From the IMG/VR virus record IMGVR_UViG_3300042731_009409, positions 44,356-108,355 of that record: 64,000 bases of DNA. One strand, 5' to 3'. Origin of the DNA: a virus. The notes beneath the pieces were generated by a model that was not told where the DNA came from, made no database searches, and was given only the letters and a program-made list of their open reading frames with translations. The translations under genes were made by a program, and so were the position numbers. This document shows positions 22,813-42,332 of the stretch, one piece after another. Positions within the stretch are counted from its first letter, which is position 1, and every line of letters begins with the position of its first letter.

Positions 22813-23274
22813 TTACAACCAATTGAAACAAGAATCATGTTTTTCACGATCTTTTGTAAGACCTACCTCTCTAAGATCTGTTCCTGTCAGATCTGCTCCT
22901 GTAAAGTTTACCTCTCTAAGATCTGCCCCTGTCAGGTTTGCCAATCTAAGATCTACATTTTCTAAATTTGATTTGTATAGGTTTGACCGTCTAAGATCTG
23001 CCCATCTAAGATCAGACCGTCTAAAATCTGCCCCCCTAAGATCTGCCCATCTAAGATCCACCCACCTAAGATCCGCCCACCTAAGTTCTGCCCCTCTAAG
23101 TTCTGCTCCTCTGAGATCTGCTCCTCTAAGATCTGCCCAACTAAGATCTGCCCCTCTAAGATCTGCCCCTCTAAGATCCGCTCCGCTCAAATCCGCTCCG
23201 CTCAAAGTGGCTTCGCACAAATCAGCACATTGCAAATCTCTTCTCCCACGTTTTATTTCGTCTATTAAGCTCAT
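22813..23274 (-). CDS. Pentapeptide-repeat protein (short)
   Basis: About 153 residues from the ATG at 23274, which overlaps the upstream stop as ATGA. From residue ~18 nearly the whole protein is A(D/N)LRGADLRWAD-type pentapeptides (~22 repeats), the signature of a right-handed quadrilateral beta-helix. The family includes gyrase-binding DNA mimics, but most members have no known target. A short non-repeat C-terminal cap (KDREKHDSCFNWL) follows. Second of a tandem pair. Confidence 0.8.
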   Translation of the reverse strand: MSLIDEIKRGRRDLQCADLCEATLSGADLSGADLRGADLRGADLSWADLRGADLRGAELRGAELRWADLRWVDLRWADLRGADFRRSDLRWADLRRSNLYKSNLENVDLRLANLTGADLREVNFTGADLTGTDLREVGLTKDREKHDSCFNWL

Positions 23275-24080
23275 TCTACCCCCCCCCAAACTAAGAATTC
23301 GGTGACTCGGTACTTCGATCCCGCTTTGTGGAGATTATGAGCCTCGAAAAGCACGGAGATCACCTCTGAGCGGTATCGAGCTTCGCGCTTCGCTTCTTGA
23401 AATGTAGGAAAAACATAAAGCCCGGGATGACATTCGGTGTCGCAAGTCGAAAACACTGGCGCTTTGTACAACTCGCCTACTTCGTATATCGTCGATCCAA
23501 TATACTTTGATTCCCGAGTCCTATACCCGATCTTCCAACTGGCGTCGTGGTCTACGAAATTGTCAGCCAAGCCGTTTGGGGGATTTGTCGGATCTAAGCA
23601 TGTTTGGGACAAATCGGCTCCGCTCAAATAGGCTTCTCTCAAACAGGCTTCTCTAAGATCGGCTCCGCTCAAACAGGCTTCTCTAAGATCGGCTCCGCTC
23701 AAATAGGCTTCTCTCAAACAGGCTTCTCTAAGATCGGCTTCTCTAAGATCGGCTCCGCTCAAATAGGCTCCGAGCAAATCGGCTCCGCTCAAATAGGCTC
23801 CGAGCAAATCGGCTCCGCTCAAATCGGCTCCGAGCAAATCGGCTCCGCTCAAATCGGCTCCGAGCAAATCGGCTCCGCTCAAATCGGCCCTTCGCAAATC
23901 GGCTCCGCTCAAATCGGCTCCGCTCAAATCGGCTCCTCTAAGATCTGCCCAACTAAGAACTGCTCCTCTAAGAACTGCTCCTCTAAGATCCAACCACCTA
24001 AGATCCAACCACCTAAGATCTGCCCAAGAAAAATCTCTTTCTCCATTTTTATATTTTTTTAGAAGTTCTTCGCGCATCAT
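23271..24080 (-). CDS. Pentapeptide-repeat protein with C-terminal globular domain
   Basis: 269 residues. Residues ~17-165 are pentapeptide repeats dominated by LSGADLLGADLSGADLREA units, highly regular at the DNA level (15-base period). Residues ~170-269 form a distinct domain (KYIGSTIYEVGELYKAPVF, HPGLYVFPTFQEAKREARY) like the domain (DUF5758-type) that follows pentapeptide repeats in other phage proteins. ATGA overlaps join it to the glycosylase gene upstream and the second repeat gene downstream. Target unknown. Confidence 0.8.
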   Translation of the reverse strand: MMREELLKKYKNGERDFSWADLRWLDLRWLDLRGAVLRGAVLSWADLRGADLSGADLSGADLRRADLSGADLLGADLSGADLLGADLSGADLLGAYLSGADLLGAYLSGADLREADLREACLREAYLSGADLREACLSGADLREACLREAYLSGADLSQTCLDPTNPPNGLADNFVDHDASWKIGYRTRESKYIGSTIYEVGELYKAPVFSTCDTECHPGLYVFPTFQEAKREARYRSEVISVLFEAHNLHKAGSKYRVTEFLVWGGVE

Positions 24081-27828: not shown

Positions 27829-28356
27829 TTATTTTGATTTTATTAATATGTCGTTCTCATCTCTCACCCAAGCTTTTCCAAATGGTTGATTTTTATAATG
27901 CGAGCCAATCCCCTGTAACAGTTTTAACCGAAGCACTTCCTCCGCTTCCATACCGAGATGTTTAGCAATTTGTTTTTCTTTCCAACCTAGTGTTAACAAT
28001 TTTTCTACCATATCCCCCATTAAATCTATTTGATGTTTTCCTCTAGCCCGATTATGTCTTATCGTTGACGCCATGCGATCTTTTATATTTTTATTTATAA
28101 CAACAATAGGAATTTTCTCGCATTTAAATTCTCTAGTCAAAACTATAAAACGATGGAATCCATCTACAACTATATATTTATTTATTTCCGAATCAAAATA
28201 AGTAACTATAGGTTGCGTAACACCATCCTCAGAAATAGAGTGTTTCAGTAAAGATAATTCCTTGCTTGCAACTTTGTTAGGGTTATAATCATTTGAAATA
28301 ACTCTGTTTGATTCTACCATTTTAACTTTCAAAACCGGGAATTTTATTTTTTTCAT
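27829..28356 (-). CDS. ibrB: ParB/sulfiredoxin-fold protein, IbrB-like
   Basis: About 175 residues from the ATG at 28356, which overlaps the IbrA-like stop as ATGA. The ParB-type domain reads LLKHSISEDGVTQPIV, YIVVDGFHRFIVLTREF (the GFHR loop), and TIRHNRARGKHQI. A helix-turn-helix-like end follows (KQIAKHLGMEAEEVLRLK). IbrB partners always sit beside a PAPS-reductase-fold IbrA, as here. In E. coli they were described as regulators of immunoglobulin-binding proteins. Their biochemistry in phages is not settled. Confidence 0.8.
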   Translation of the reverse strand: MKKIKFPVLKVKMVESNRVISNDYNPNKVASKELSLLKHSISEDGVTQPIVTYFDSEINKYIVVDGFHRFIVLTREFKCEKIPIVVINKNIKDRMASTIRHNRARGKHQIDLMGDMVEKLLTLGWKEKQIAKHLGMEAEEVLRLKLLQGIGSHYKNQPFGKAWVRDENDILIKSK

Positions 28357-29444
28357 AATATTTTCATCCATTTTTCTTTTATATTTTCTGTTTTTTCTTT
28401 TGTTTTAGAAGTATTGACGGAAATATTGTTTTCCCAATCATTTATCAACAACTGTCTGACTTGTTGTCTATGGACATTTATATCATTAGGTTGTTTATCA
28501 AATCTATTTTTAAATCTTTTCTTCCTATGCTCGGCCATTTCTTCTAATAAAAAATTTCTATATTCCAACCATGATTTAAATTTTTTCGGCAATTTTTTTG
28601 CAGAATACATTTGGTGTTCTTTCGAATATATCCCTGCTGTATGGGCACCTTTTATTCTTTTTGTTAATTTATCATAATTCTCTGGTTCGAATTCTTGAAG
28701 TGTAGCCAGGCTTTTATATGATTTTTCGTGCAACAAAAAACTCACTCTAAAATCATTTATACTTACATTTTTCACCCATAAATAATCATATATTCTATTA
28801 TATTCTATATTATATTTCCCCATATATGTCCAAATATCTTCAAAAGACCAATCATAAACTGGATAGAATCTGATTGATTTTCCTTTTCCTTTTGACGACC
28901 AATTAATATTTTTTATTGCCGGATTTCTAGTTACAGCACCAAATCTATTCAAACTTTCTTCTGTTCTCAATCCGACAAGAAATGCAGTTTTTTTATCTTG
29001 GATTCCTTCAAACCAATCCATAAAATCATAAAATCTTTCTGGTGCATTTGGTTCGCTGTGTATTGCTATAGAATCTTTTTCTCTCAACCAATTTTCGTTT
29101 TTTCCCCAAGCATAAAACCATTCGCTTTCGTAAGATGTTGCATTTGTCATTTTTATTGGTACCTGATACCAGTAAGGTTCTACATTTTTTTTATTCATTA
29201 TTTGTTTTACAACCTTTATGCTAGAATCATATTCTGCTTCTTGATCCAAAAAAAATACCTTAATAATTCTGTCAGATTCTAAAGCAATTTTATACGCTAT
29301 TTCAAATACAACATGACTATCTTTTCCGCCCGAAATTGATACTATTATGTTTTCATATTTATTGAAAATCCATCTTATTCTTTTTTTTGCCGCTTCTAAA
29401 ACGTTACAATTTATATATAATTTTCTACCATCTTTATTTTTCAT
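28353..29444 (-). CDS. ibrA: PAPS-reductase/ATP-pyrophosphatase fold protein, IbrA-like (DUF3440)
   Basis: 363 residues. The PP-loop SISGGKDSHVVFEI (near residue 38) binds ATP. KVFFLDQEAEYDSS and MDWFEGIQDKKTAFLVGLRTEES follow as in PAPS reductases. RFYPVYDWSFEDIWTYMGKY and the YDYLWVKNVSINDFRVSFL to KSYKSLATLQEFEPENYDKL region match the DUF3440 C-terminal part of IbrA. The redox Cys of true PAPS reductases is not evident, so adenylation or thiolation chemistry is more likely than sulfate reduction. Overlaps the helicase-domain gene by 11 bases. Confidence 0.85.
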   Translation of the reverse strand: MKNKDGRKLYINCNVLEAAKKRIRWIFNKYENIIVSISGGKDSHVVFEIAYKIALESDRIIKVFFLDQEAEYDSSIKVVKQIMNKKNVEPYWYQVPIKMTNATSYESEWFYAWGKNENWLREKDSIAIHSEPNAPERFYDFMDWFEGIQDKKTAFLVGLRTEESLNRFGAVTRNPAIKNINWSSKGKGKSIRFYPVYDWSFEDIWTYMGKYNIEYNRIYDYLWVKNVSINDFRVSFLLHEKSYKSLATLQEFEPENYDKLTKRIKGAHTAGIYSKEHQMYSAKKLPKKFKSWLEYRNFLLEEMAEHRKKRFKNRFDKQPNDINVHRQQVRQLLINDWENNISVNTSKTKEKTENIKEKWMKIL

Positions 29445-30459
29445 ATTTCCACAACTCCTTTGTATAAGAATCTATTTGATTTAATTCATTGTTTATTAAA
29501 TTGAACAAATATTTGTCTACATTTGAATCGCCCAATATGTGAAAAACATTTTTACCTTCTGTCAACGTCATAGTGTCTAGAAAATAATAACTATTGGTTA
29601 TTGGGCTTTCCATATATATAACATTTTGTATACCTGACAGATCAACATTGCCCAATTGATAAGAAATGGCTTTTGTATTCCTTATTTTATTTTTTTTTAT
29701 TAATTTGTTTATGTTATTAGCATAATTTGATAGATTTGTATAAACAATCGTATTTTTCTTTAAATTCAACATCAACTCTAATAAAAACTCAAGTCTACTT
29801 TGATCTGCATGTGCTAAATCTGCCAATTTTGTAATTATTCTTCTATAAGACAAATCGGATTCAAAAAGACGTTTCTTTAATTTGGCATATTTTTTTTTCT
29901 CGTCATCGGTAGTATTAAATTTTTTTATTATTCTTTTAGTTGAAAAAAATTCATAATCTATTTCTACATAATCTTTCGTCTTATACGCCAGCAAATCAGA
30001 ATCGTGACAATGTTTTATTTTTCCGTTCCAATATTCTTCATAATTTTCTCTAAAAGCGTACCAATGAGGATAACCTAATATTTGCCTCCCTATATAGCAA
30101 AATGTAGTATATATATATTCTTTTGATATTGTAAACGGAACTATATCTGTTATATAAGCATTTTCTTCACCACACCTCATACTCAATCTCTGCAAATTTT
30201 GAAACTTTGGACTAGTTATTTTTGGATACCTGGTGGGGTTCTCCAACATTATTTTTACACCATCACCAACCAAAGAATTTATATGCAACCAAACATCTTT
30301 ATCATTTATAGATTCGTATGTGGTTTTATAAATTCCATCCAAATTAAAATTTTTTCTATCTAAATTTTTTGGATAGATGTATATTCCATTATTTTTTTCT
30401 AAAATCTTTTTTATAAAATCTTCTCTTCTTTTTTTAGATTTTGAAATAAAAATTTTCAT
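29434..30459 (-). CDS. Helicase-C-domain-only protein linked to SNF2 helicase
   Basis: 341 residues. The C-terminal ~110 residues resemble the second RecA-like domain of SF2 helicases: KNTIVYTNLSNYANNINKL (motif IV), LGNVDLSGIQNVIYMESP (motif V region), and a motif VI-like GDSNVDKYLFNLINNELNQID end. No Walker A, and arginine-finger residues are not obvious, so it is probably inactive alone. The N-terminal ~200 residues are unknown (VWLHINSLVGDGVKIML). ATGA-coupled to the SNF2 gene; likely a partner subunit. Confidence 0.6.
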   Translation of the reverse strand: MKIFISKSKKRREDFIKKILEKNNGIYIYPKNLDRKNFNLDGIYKTTYESINDKDVWLHINSLVGDGVKIMLENPTRYPKITSPKFQNLQRLSMRCGEENAYITDIVPFTISKEYIYTTFCYIGRQILGYPHWYAFRENYEEYWNGKIKHCHDSDLLAYKTKDYVEIDYEFFSTKRIIKKFNTTDDEKKKYAKLKKRLFESDLSYRRIITKLADLAHADQSRLEFLLELMLNLKKNTIVYTNLSNYANNINKLIKKNKIRNTKAISYQLGNVDLSGIQNVIYMESPITNSYYFLDTMTLTEGKNVFHILGDSNVDKYLFNLINNELNQIDSYTKELWKYEK

Positions 30460-31835
30460 AATTCTTCAACTATTTTTTTTATATCATCAAAATTTTTACA
30501 TTTTTCTAAAACTTTTCTAAATGTTTCAGAAGTATCTCTTTTTTTAGATATATTTGAACTTATTTTGTCTTCGATACCACAATCAGCCCAAATACTAATG
30601 TAAAACACTTCGTTTTTTTGTCCTATTCTATGAATTCTATTTTCAGCTTGTATTCTATCTGAATATTTAAATTTATTATCATAAAATATACAATAAGAAG
30701 CATTTGTTAAATTCAAACCATAACCTCCAACACCATATGTTGCAACCAATATTCTGCCATTTTTTTTCCATTTTTCTATAACCGTATTTCTTGTTATATG
30801 GTCTATATTTCCGTTTATCAAAAAACAATTTTCAAGATTATTATAAATATATTCTGAACATTTTAAATATTTGGTAAAAATTATAATTTTATCAGTTTTT
30901 TTTATTTCTTTTGTTATTGTTTTTAGCATACGAAATCTATTGTCAAAACAAACGGTTTCACCATCTTCATTTATATATATCCCTGAAACAATTTTTTGTA
31001 AAGTAGAAAAAAGTTTAAATATATAAAAAGAATACATATATTCTTCACATGAACACATTTTGTCCAAAGCCAATTCTTTTTCTATTTCATAAGTCTTCCT
31101 TTGTAACTCTTCTAAATCAAAAATCTTATTTATATAATTTTTGTCTGGCAAATTCACATATTCTTCTTTGGTAGCCTGGAAAATAAATGGTTTTATTTTG
31201 TTAGTCAATGTGTCTATATTAAAACTTCTAACAATCAAACCGGGATATTTATCGGAATACTCCAAATGATTATTTGCAAAACTATAAAAAGATCTATAAC
31301 CAAGTATTTTATGACTTAAAAACTTCATTTGTGAAAACAAATCTACTATTCCTTGAGACAATGGAGTTCCTGTCAATATAAAGCGATACCTTGATATAGA
31401 TGATAATTCAGTTATCCTTTTCGTTCTTTTGCTGTTGTGTGTTTTTATATACAAAGATTCATCAACAATTACAAATGTCTTTTCTGTAACCAAATTCGAA
31501 ATAGAAAAATATACATTATTACTACTGCTAATTGATTCTATTCCAACACCATACCAATCATATTGCCTATTCGGTTTTTTCGAATAATCGAACAAATACA
31601 GATCAGGTTCGATTAAGTGTTTATTCAATTCGCTTTCAAAAGTTTTCAACAAAGAAACGGGACAAAACCAAATTACTTTATCAATATTTTTTTGCCTTTG
31701 TTCTATAAGCAAAAACGCAGTAAATGTTTTGCCCAGACCCATATCCATAAACAAACCACCTACTTTATTTTTTTTCAAATATTTTAACGCTTTTATTTGA
31801 TGTTCAAGGGGTTTAGTTTTCAAACAAACTTTCAT
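30456..31835 (-). CDS. SNF2-family helicase/ATPase
   Basis: 459 residues, compact for the family. Walker A FMDMGLGKTFTAF near residue 32, Walker B FVIVDESLYIK (DESL instead of DEAH), motif III RFILTGTPLSQG, motif IV KIIIFTKYLKCSEYIYN, motif V ILVATYGVGGYGLNLT, and motif VI SDRIQAENRIHRIGQK. All core motifs are intact. Phage SNF2 proteins of this size usually act in DNA metabolism or counter-defence. Together with its neighbours it forms a tightly coupled block. Confidence 0.9.
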   Translation of the reverse strand: MKVCLKTKPLEHQIKALKYLKKNKVGGLFMDMGLGKTFTAFLLIEQRQKNIDKVIWFCPVSLLKTFESELNKHLIEPDLYLFDYSKKPNRQYDWYGVGIESISSSNNVYFSISNLVTEKTFVIVDESLYIKTHNSKRTKRITELSSISRYRFILTGTPLSQGIVDLFSQMKFLSHKILGYRSFYSFANNHLEYSDKYPGLIVRSFNIDTLTNKIKPFIFQATKEEYVNLPDKNYINKIFDLEELQRKTYEIEKELALDKMCSCEEYMYSFYIFKLFSTLQKIVSGIYINEDGETVCFDNRFRMLKTITKEIKKTDKIIIFTKYLKCSEYIYNNLENCFLINGNIDHITRNTVIEKWKKNGRILVATYGVGGYGLNLTNASYCIFYDNKFKYSDRIQAENRIHRIGQKNEVFYISIWADCGIEDKISSNISKKRDTSETFRKVLEKCKNFDDIKKIVEEL

Positions 31836-32439
31836 TTTTTATATCAGTATTTATTTCTACATTTCCCTTTTTTAAAATAGAGTCGATTTCTTTAATACGT
31901 TGTACCAACCTTTCTCTTTCCTTTTTTAATGCTTCGGGATTGATGCTATTAGGTTCTATTATATCTATGCTTGCCCAACATTTTTCTTCGCGCTTTATTT
32001 TTTTTGCTATGCCAAGCGGAATATCTCTCAGCTCTATTGTAGAATTTTCATCGAGCGATACATACCAGTTTTTTAGTGAACCTGCCGAATCCACATTGCC
32101 ATTTTTCAAAATAGCTTTCCCGGACATTTTAGCACCAGAATCTCTTCCATAAGCTCGCGCAATTTCTACCGGTCCACAAAATAATGCTTTTCTATATCCC
32201 GACTCTATTTTTGTGTTGTTTTTTAGTATTATACAACAATTTTCTTCTTTACCGGTTCCGTCTACACCAAAACAATCTAAAAGAACGTCCTTTATATCAG
32301 ATTCGTCTCTTTCATCAAAAACCCAGCACTTGTCGATCGAATTCCATTTGCCATTTAGGTTTTTGGCAGTTGATATAAAATTTTTATTGTATGGCGTATA
32401 CGTAAATAACTTACCATCTTTTTTTTTCAATTTTACCAT
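31813..32439 (-). CDS. SNF2-associated small-domain protein
   Basis: 208 residues. Residues 10-50 (LFTYTPYNKNFISTAKNLNGKW then KCWVFDERDE) match a short HARP-like domain often found fused to or next to SNF2 helicases. The middle (~80-150) is beta-rich with ELRDIPLGIAKKIKREEK. The C-terminus is a Glu/Lys coiled coil. Overlaps the SNF2 start by 23 bases. Probably a DNA-binding or targeting subunit for the helicase. Confidence 0.55.
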   Translation of the reverse strand: MVKLKKKDGKLFTYTPYNKNFISTAKNLNGKWNSIDKCWVFDERDESDIKDVLLDCFGVDGTGKEENCCIILKNNTKIESGYRKALFCGPVEIARAYGRDSGAKMSGKAILKNGNVDSAGSLKNWYVSLDENSTIELRDIPLGIAKKIKREEKCWASIDIIEPNSINPEALKKERERLVQRIKEIDSILKKGNVEINTDIKNESLFEN

Positions 32440-39390: not shown

Positions 39391-39615
39391 TTACCTACTC
39401 ATCCAGTCTTCGTATTCTTCTTGCGTGAATTGGATGTTGTTTATCTTGTATTTTGAATTTTGAATATTTAAGCAATCAAAACACTTATAACAATCTGAGC
39501 AGTCGGAGTTTTCGCAGTCCAAACAATATAAGCAATACGTGCAATTCTTGTTTGGACCGTTCCATTGTCTTAAATATCCTGTTCTTCCTAGTTTTAGTAA
39601 TTCGGTTTTTTCCAT
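39391..39615 (-). CDS. Cys-x-x repeat protein, member 2 (shortest)
   Basis: 74 residues. Family start TELLKLGRTGYLRQWN and end IQFTQEEYEDWMSR enclose only ~25 repeat residues (CTYCLYCLDC, then CSDCYKCFDC). The conserved caps with a variable number of Cys-x-x units show length change by repeat gain or loss. Class B promoter with LexA-like box. Confidence 0.65.
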   Translation of the reverse strand: MEKTELLKLGRTGYLRQWNGPNKNCTYCLYCLDCENSDCSDCYKCFDCLNIQNSKYKINNIQFTQEEYEDWMSR

Positions 39616-41646: not shown

Positions 41647-42117
41647 TTACCTACCCATCCAGTTTTCGTATTCTTCTTGCGTAAATTGGATATTATCTAT
41701 CATATACTTTGAATTTTGAATATCAGAACAACCAGCGCAATCAGAACAGCGTGAACACTCTGAACAACTTAAACATTTTTTACAGCCCGAACACTCTAAA
41801 CAACCTAAACACTCTGAACAGTTTGAACAGTCTAAACAGTCTAAACAGTCTAAACAACGTGAGCAGTCTAAACAGTATAAACAGTATAAACAATGTGAGC
41901 AACGCGAACAGTCCGAACAACGTGAACAGTCCGAACAACCAGAGCAAGACGAACAACCAGAACAACCAGAGCAAGACGAACAACTATAACAATGCGAGCA
42001 ATCAGAGCATTCTGAACAATCTAAACAATACAAGCATTTGGAACAATTCTTATTTGAATTGTTCCATTGTCTTAAATATCCTGTTCTTCCTAGTTTTAGT
42101 AATTCGGTTTTTTCCAT
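41647..42117 (-). CDS. Cys-x-x repeat protein, member 4 (longest)
   Basis: About 156 residues from the ATG at 42117. Start TELLKLGRTGYLRQWNNSNK and end IQFTQEEYENWMGR. About 110 residues of Cys-x-x (CSGCSGCSSCSGCSDCSRC, then CLDCLDCLDC), ~38 Cys. The upstream stop shares a base with the ATG (TAATG). Same leader region as member 2. See findings for the family. Confidence 0.65.
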   Translation of the reverse strand: MEKTELLKLGRTGYLRQWNNSNKNCSKCLYCLDCSECSDCSHCYSCSSCSGCSGCSSCSGCSDCSRCSDCSRCSHCLYCLYCLDCSRCLDCLDCLDCSNCSECLGCLECSGCKKCLSCSECSRCSDCAGCSDIQNSKYMIDNIQFTQEEYENWMGR

Positions 42118-42332
42118 TATTGTTTCTTTCTTTTTTTGTACCGGTATCGGATATGAAAAGCCGATGAACAACCCATCACATCACAATTATGCGTTTCATC
42201 GATTGGGTCGCCTAATACTATAATTTCTGTGTCCGTTTCATAACATTCTCTTAGTATACCCTCCGGGAAATTCGACAAGGGGACATGGACAATAATTTTA
42301 TCGTCCCTAAGAATATGTAAAGATGTATTCAT
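42117..42332 (-). CDS. Hypothetical protein
   Basis: About 71 residues from the ATG at 42332 (site AAGGA eight bases ahead; 42338 is an alternative). LHILRDDKIIVHVPLSNFPE and ETDTEIIVLGDPIDETHNCD. Small beta-rich fold, basic end (RYKKRKKQ). Overlaps the Cys-x-x gene start by one base. Unrecognised. Confidence 0.45.
   Translation of the reverse strand: MNTSLHILRDDKIIVHVPLSNFPEGILRECYETDTEIIVLGDPIDETHNCDVMGCSSAFHIRYRYKKRKKQ

Follow-up and report, generated by a model that had tools for sequence, protein, structure and literature searches.

We analysed a 64,000-nucleotide stretch of viral DNA (the window; positions 44356-108355 of the 108,355-bp virus record IMGVR_UViG_3300042731_009409), in which an earlier reading of the sequence, the original prediction, had singled out a five-gene block around the genes IbrA and IbrB as a possible undescribed system. 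Five open reading frames were confirmed on the minus strand at 27829-32439 of the window, transcribed in the order HARP-like protein, SNF2 ATPase, 341-residue protein, IbrA and IbrB (Table 1). Neighbouring frames overlap by 23 nt (HARP-like/SNF2), 4 nt (SNF2/341-residue protein) and 11 nt (341-residue protein/IbrA); IbrA and IbrB overlap by 19 nt when IbrB is read from its first ATG (28371), and the overlaps of 4, 11, 4 and 23 bases first given match the coordinates if IbrB starts at 28356. These overlaps had been taken as a strong sign of joint function. They are weak evidence alone because 30 of the 56 adjacent same-strand gene pairs in the window overlap; joint function itself is supported by the comparative genomics described below. 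The block has a G+C content of 28% (26% in the SNF2 and 341-residue genes) between flanks of 34-35%, a contrast suggestive of an acquired cassette. The block shares its strand with the structural genes and points away from the replication genes, which are on the opposite strand.

Table 1. Genes of the five-gene block, in window coordinates.
Feature	Coordinates	Strand	Basis
IbrB, ParB/sulfiredoxin-fold NTP-binding protein, 180 residues	27829..28371	-	PF02195 ParB_N 2.6e-08
IbrA, PP-loop/PAPS-reductase-fold ATP pyrophosphatase, 363 residues	28353..29444	-	PF01507 PAPS_reduct 3.4e-15; PF11922 DUF3440 2.4e-11
pSNF2, catalytically dead SNF2 paralogue (predicted), 341 residues	29434..30459	-	orthologues, profile homology, AlphaFold2 models
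Complete SNF2 ATPase, 459 residues	30456..31835	-	PF00176 SNF2-rel_dom 1.7e-25; PF00271 Helicase_C 1.8e-14
HARP-like protein, 208 residues	31813..32439	-	first gene of block; N-terminal motif PYNKNF..AKNLNGKW....WVF

Three of the products are as first described. The 459-residue protein is a complete SNF2 ATPase in which motifs I (GLGKT), II (DESLYIK), III (LTGTP), V (VGGYGLNL) and VI (QAENRIHRIGQ) are all intact in both sequence and alignment, and it is a predicted translocase of double-stranded DNA. Pfam and PHROGs confirmed a PAPS-reductase fold for IbrA (phrog_2302, 2e-93), which carries an SISGGKDS loop at residues 36-43, and a ParB fold for IbrB (phrog_2159, 1.1e-59), with DGFHR and TIRHNRARGKH motifs that are conserved in the alignment.

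The 341-residue protein had been described as helicase-C-only. It matched nothing in Pfam, PHROGs, NCBIfam or PADLOC, nor any of 50,697 phage records, but orthologues were found directly 5' of IbrA at three of the loci surveyed below: L019 (32%, 1e-48), L234 (43%, 2e-86) and L251 (41%, 2e-89). A phmmer search with the window protein returned the L019 orthologue first, followed by SNF2 ATPases encoded beside IbrA (best 1e-08), and a profile of the window and L019 sequences aligned to SNF2 with an hhalign probability of 86%. When modelled with AlphaFold2 from a mixed alignment that included real SNF2s (pLDDT 82, pTM 0.77), the protein matched SNF2 ATPases over residues 1-341 (Foldseek 6e-10; VIA Z 25.8); a control model, built from pSNF2-type rows only (pLDDT 71, pTM 0.67), likewise had SNF2 and related SF2 motors as its top matches. 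The window protein lacks Walker A, the DExx box and motif VI, as does every standalone pSNF2 in the SNF2-anchored survey. Rather than a helicase C domain alone, the models show a full-length, two-lobe SNF2 fold in which no ATPase motif survives, and we refer to this predicted dead paralogue as pSNF2.

Related dead-SNF2 proteins occupy the slot directly before IbrA in about 40 viruses. Single-sequence viral scans with window pSNF2, the 208-residue protein or IbrA gave no matches because the sequences are too divergent, and alignments were therefore used. A two-sequence pSNF2 profile retrieved only the L019 contig, though L234 and L251, which were reached through SNF2, hold orthologues. Proteins of about 290 residues before IbrA in L022-L034 are linked to window pSNF2 mainly by iterative profiles and moderate hhalign scores (32%). 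The shorter pre-IbrA proteins of L020, L021 and L182 (220-260 residues) scored only 0.3-3% with hhalign as members of the family and were counted by position only.

Conservation of the block was assessed from both ends. In an IbrA-anchored survey of 80 viral and 80 genome loci (n=160), IbrB adjoins IbrA in 157 and SNF2 adjoins the pair in 34 (23 viral, 11 genome). By comparison, a rough calculation that takes 2.4% of phage records to have an SNF2 match would place SNF2 directly upstream of IbrA by chance in 0.06 of the 160 loci in total. A pSNF2-like gene stands immediately before IbrA at 13 viral loci, with overlaps of about 4-40 nt in most and some starts uncertain, and a Zn-ribbon/HARP-like protein is present at 18 of the 160 loci. 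Upstream accessory, SNF2, pSNF2-like gene, IbrA and IbrB are found together in L019, L020, L023, L025, L026 and L029, and more loosely in L024. The SNF2-anchored survey searched viral contigs, independently of IbrA, with a profile of the window-type SNF2 clade and yielded 80 loci. IbrA lies within 4 kb of SNF2 in 78 of these (directly downstream in 70) and the other two are contig edges, a linkage that applies to this clade, as the profile was built from IbrA-linked SNF2s. The window SNF2 is 40-46% identical to IbrA-linked SNF2s; its best match among the 50,697 phage records has about 30% identity, and the similarly distant SNF2s of Acinetobacter SH-Ab 15497 and Pelagibacter HTVC023P (about 30%) have no annotated IbrA neighbour. 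The window protein is a member of an SNF2 clade specific to IbrA operons. Gene order, accessory-SNF2-(pSNF2)-IbrA-(GNAT)-IbrB, is largely constant. The neighbours are thus conserved as more than pairs, with SNF2-IbrA-IbrB recurring widely and the dead SNF2 recurring between SNF2 and IbrA, and the five genes form a recurrent operon.

The first gene fits its original label less well. A Pfam search placed the 208-residue protein in no family and gave no HARP match at E values up to 1; its resemblance to HARP is confined to the short W/PYN motif, leaving the label without Pfam support. The protein belongs to phrog_18108 (1.7e-28), a PHROG of unknown function, and has homologues in a few phages (Fusobacterium, Dolichospermum and Salisaeta phages). 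Its slot is filled in most relatives by the different Zn-ribbon/HARP-like family, with which it shares a weak PHROG match but to which hhalign gives a probability of just 3.5%. The 208-residue protein is probably a DNA-binding adaptor for the SNF2 motor. A HARP-like protein lies upstream of SNF2, or is fused to it, in most SNF2-anchored loci, an arrangement that would also suit a helper in repair or replication, with SNF2 and its partner acting as a SMARCAL1-like fork remodeller while IbrA and IbrB process damaged ends. The near-absolute linkage is to IbrA, however, and not to replication genes, the block of the window phage is on the strand opposite those genes, and Pfam finds no HARP domain; we consider such a role quite improbable.

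A tree of 82 IbrAs pairs the window copy with L019 (99/90). The pSNF2-linked IbrAs form one group of 12 rows (86/84) that adjoins the Flavobacterium-phage SNF2-IbrB-IbrA type (94/80); L021 falls outside this clade, its second IbrA paralogue having been used. Because SNF2-linked IbrAs lie on both sides of the tree, the SNF2 link is, judging from these sequences, old or was made more than once. Gene-by-gene annotation shows SNF2-IbrA-IbrB triples in Streptococcus CHPC1148/CHPC877, Lactobacillus AQ113 and Flavobacterium FCL-2 and 2A phages, and IbrA-IbrB pairs without SNF2 in mycobacterial, Arthrobacter, Faecalibacterium and Rhizobium phages. The triples resemble the window block in their tight packing and, in most, a small upstream protein, but they lack the dead SNF2 copy and the Flavobacterium phages have the order SNF2-IbrB-IbrA. 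In some phages the operon follows the lysis genes, in others it stands between terminase and portal, and the IbrAB module extends to chromosomes and plasmids. IbrA matches occur in 590 plasmid records, mostly of Klebsiella and E. coli; one K. pneumoniae IncFIB plasmid (L185, 3977-5838) carries IbrA-IbrB without SNF2 beside the salmochelin genes iroB/iroC. A haloarchaeal plasmid (L182, NZ_CP071309, 3943-8083) encodes an IbrB and an IbrA that shares 48% identity with that of the window; also present are a DPPW methyltransferase, another protein with the PAPS-reductase fold and, in the slot of pSNF2, a protein of 261 residues.

Across 39 divergent IbrAs, residues S38, G40, K41, D42, S43, D67, E69, R160 and E163 are (nearly) invariant, no column is mainly Cys and the CysH catalytic motif ECGLH is absent throughout; window IbrA has a single Cys (C13). 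By profile, the closest solved structures are CysD (an ATP sulfurylase subunit) and FAD synthase, followed by PAPS reductases. The desulfurase family PF00266 was absent from the 108-kb record, with 14 of 14 controls positive, although the record may be incomplete and a host enzyme could substitute; DndE (PF08870) gave no match in the record, but none in the control genomes either. The retained ATP-pyrophosphatase loop, the lack of a conserved Cys and of a desulfurase, and the proximity of CysD and FAD synthase lead us to infer that IbrA more probably adenylates its target than transfers sulfur or reduces PAPS. Both proteins are common in chromosomes, plasmids and phages, where they are annotated as 'PAPS reductase' or 'partition protein', labels that are unlikely to be correct for IbrA.

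The DndC/DndB-type sulfur chemistry first proposed for the pair fares poorly on the same evidence. IbrA is weakly similar to BrxP (1.5e-09) and DndC (2.5e-04), and IbrB shares the ParB superfamily with DndB, but DndC needs a cysteine dyad (PMC10853773) for which IbrA has no conserved counterpart, and no desulfurase family was found in the record. Dnd-like phosphorothioation of DNA is thus the least credible explanation that we considered, and a very improbable one.

Genes that accompany IbrAB elsewhere point to other chemistry. A DNA amino-methyltransferase (PF01555, DPPY/DPPW) adjoins IbrAB in 14 of the 160 loci, including 10 of the 13 with a pSNF2-like gene; DPPY/DPPW methyltransferases act on exocyclic amino groups of DNA, so the target of the operon may well be DNA. 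GNAT proteins occur in 42 of 160 loci (for example L064:7296-7724, L099:7242-7652 and L134:5583-5990), commonly as a small gene between IbrA and IbrB and, in Bacteroidota, directly before IbrA. The ectoine synthase EctC (PF06339, with E values as low as 2e-44) is present at 8 of 160 loci, in some of them fused to IbrB. In phages and a planctomycete contig its gene was seen next to IbrA (L075, L078, L083, L131) or fused to the IbrB N terminus (L010 (Gaia), L059, L079, L093, L094). No ectoine pathway was noticed beside these EctC genes. The presence of GNAT and ectoine synthase among the partners suggests additional group-transfer reactions. Within the SNF2-anchored loci that carry IbrA (n=78), GNAT adjoins IbrA at 27 of the 48 that lack pSNF2, compared with 3 of the 30 that have it (Fisher p 4e-05), a contrast that is a lead only, as related contigs are not independent.

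Taken with the reciprocal SNF2-IbrA linkage, the IbrA SGGKDS loop and its likeness to CysD and FAD synthase, these partners lead us to favour, at rather less than even confidence, a translocase-driven DNA-modification module, which the phage would most probably use in its contest over restriction to mark its own DNA or to alter the DNA of the host or of competitors. The active SNF2 would translocate on double-stranded DNA as one half of an active/inactive motor dimer, in which the dead copy would dock IbrA to the moving complex. IbrA would adenylate either a base carbonyl or a phosphate of the DNA, and a nucleophile would then displace AMP. IbrB, a putative ParB-fold NTP switch, would load or gate the complex on DNA, and the HARP-like protein would aid DNA recognition. 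In related operons the added group might be methylated, acetylated (GNAT) or perhaps cyclised (EctC). Precedent exists in SNF2 ATPases coupled to phage DNA methylases, such as P1 DarB (PMC5512222). A more speculative extension, which we think doubtful, is that IbrAB operons constitute a large undescribed family of translocase-driven DNA-hypermodification systems whose chemistry is new, with IbrA ligating a small amine-type group to DNA by way of an adenylated intermediate and partners then methylating, acetylating (GNAT) or cyclising (ectoine synthase) it. As the dead SNF2 and the acetyltransferase are seldom found together, the one would stand in for the other as the partner of IbrA.

Several points weigh against a DNA-modification module. 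No match to a PF01555 N6/N4-methyltransferase, GNAT, TGT or thymidylate synthase was found in the 108-kb record, so modification would have to be complete with IbrA and IbrB alone or use host enzymes. Most cellular IbrAB pairs have no SNF2 neighbour. The sole experimental label of IbrAB is that of 'co-activator', from E. coli ECOR-9, where the pair activates prophage eib genes (Sandt et al. 2002, cited in PMC10434257). Transcription co-activation would accordingly have IbrA, IbrB and a RapA-like SNF2 act at phage promoters by remodelling RNA polymerase or repressors; SNF2-fold RapA, which acts on RNA polymerase, is among the Foldseek matches of pSNF2 (rank 48). Yet a regulator has no need of an invariant ATP-pyrophosphatase site or of methyltransferase, GNAT and ectoine-synthase partners, and the operon is located in different phage regions, which makes this explanation unlikely.

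The original prediction proposed antidefence or competitor exclusion, a role that is at present hypothetical. Exclusion or defence would have the module attack competitor-phage DNA through SNF2 translocation, with IbrB as an NTP-gated nicking enzyme and IbrA marking the phage's own DNA. The nearest PADLOC models are the SNF2s of Zorya, Dpd, DISARM and BREX, conflict systems are known to include ParB-fold nucleases (PMC5512222), and a compositionally distinct cassette shared by chromosomes, plasmids and viruses would fit; but the operon has no conserved gene for a dedicated nuclease and no PADLOC system matches the gene set, and we hold this reading to be rather unlikely.

The block was also compared with its closest known systems. 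The ECOR-9 pair has the same two families (PHROG 2302/2159, of which the window genes are members by sequence) in the same adjacency, but is known only as a two-gene regulator, whereas the window pair is the tail of an SNF2-pSNF2 operon. The Dpd 7-deazaguanine system is similar in joining DpdB, which is ParB-like, to the SNF2-type helicase DpdE and an enzyme that modifies bases; it differs in that IbrA is a PP-loop protein, not a TGT, and that the TGT DpdA (PF01702) is absent from the virus record, which may be incomplete. Anti-restriction by the P1 DarB-type methylase and SWI2/SNF2 protein also couples a phage SNF2 translocase to a DNA-modifying enzyme, but there the translocase and an adenine methylase are parts of one large virion protein, and IbrA and IbrB are missing. 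Dnd/Ssp and BREX type 4 (BrxP) share the PAPS-reductase fold, and Dnd also has the ParB-superfamily DndB; the lack of conserved cysteines in IbrA and of any desulfurase match in the virus record distinguishes the block from both. The gene combination is not described in the passages retrieved from surveys of BREX, Dnd, ParB-fold and polyvalent proteins (PMC12839542, PMC10853773, PMC12704722, PMC5512222), and a literature search for IbrA/IbrB with phage or defence, with preprints and subscription papers outside its scope, returned annotations only. The five-gene operon is therefore recurrent but apparently undescribed, in keeping with the suggestion of an undescribed system in so far as no description was found, which is not proof of novelty. 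With a dedicated SNF2 clade and, in some lineages, an added dead SNF2 subunit, IbrA and IbrB cease to be orphans and become parts of a multi-subunit system whose partners can be tested, and phages with IbrAB operons that could serve as models are already in culture (Streptococcus, Flavobacterium). If DNA is indeed modified, the operon would represent a new phage self-marking chemistry.

Two further features of the window were noted. A 269-residue pentapeptide-repeat-like protein with ADLSG-type repeats (23271-24080) is encoded about 3.7 kb from the block; the pentapeptide-repeat fold is known from DNA-mimic proteins. At 41647-42171 and 39391-39615 are genes for two short, related proteins with many Cys-Ser repeats, both of which carry MEKTELLKLGRTGYLRQWN near the start.

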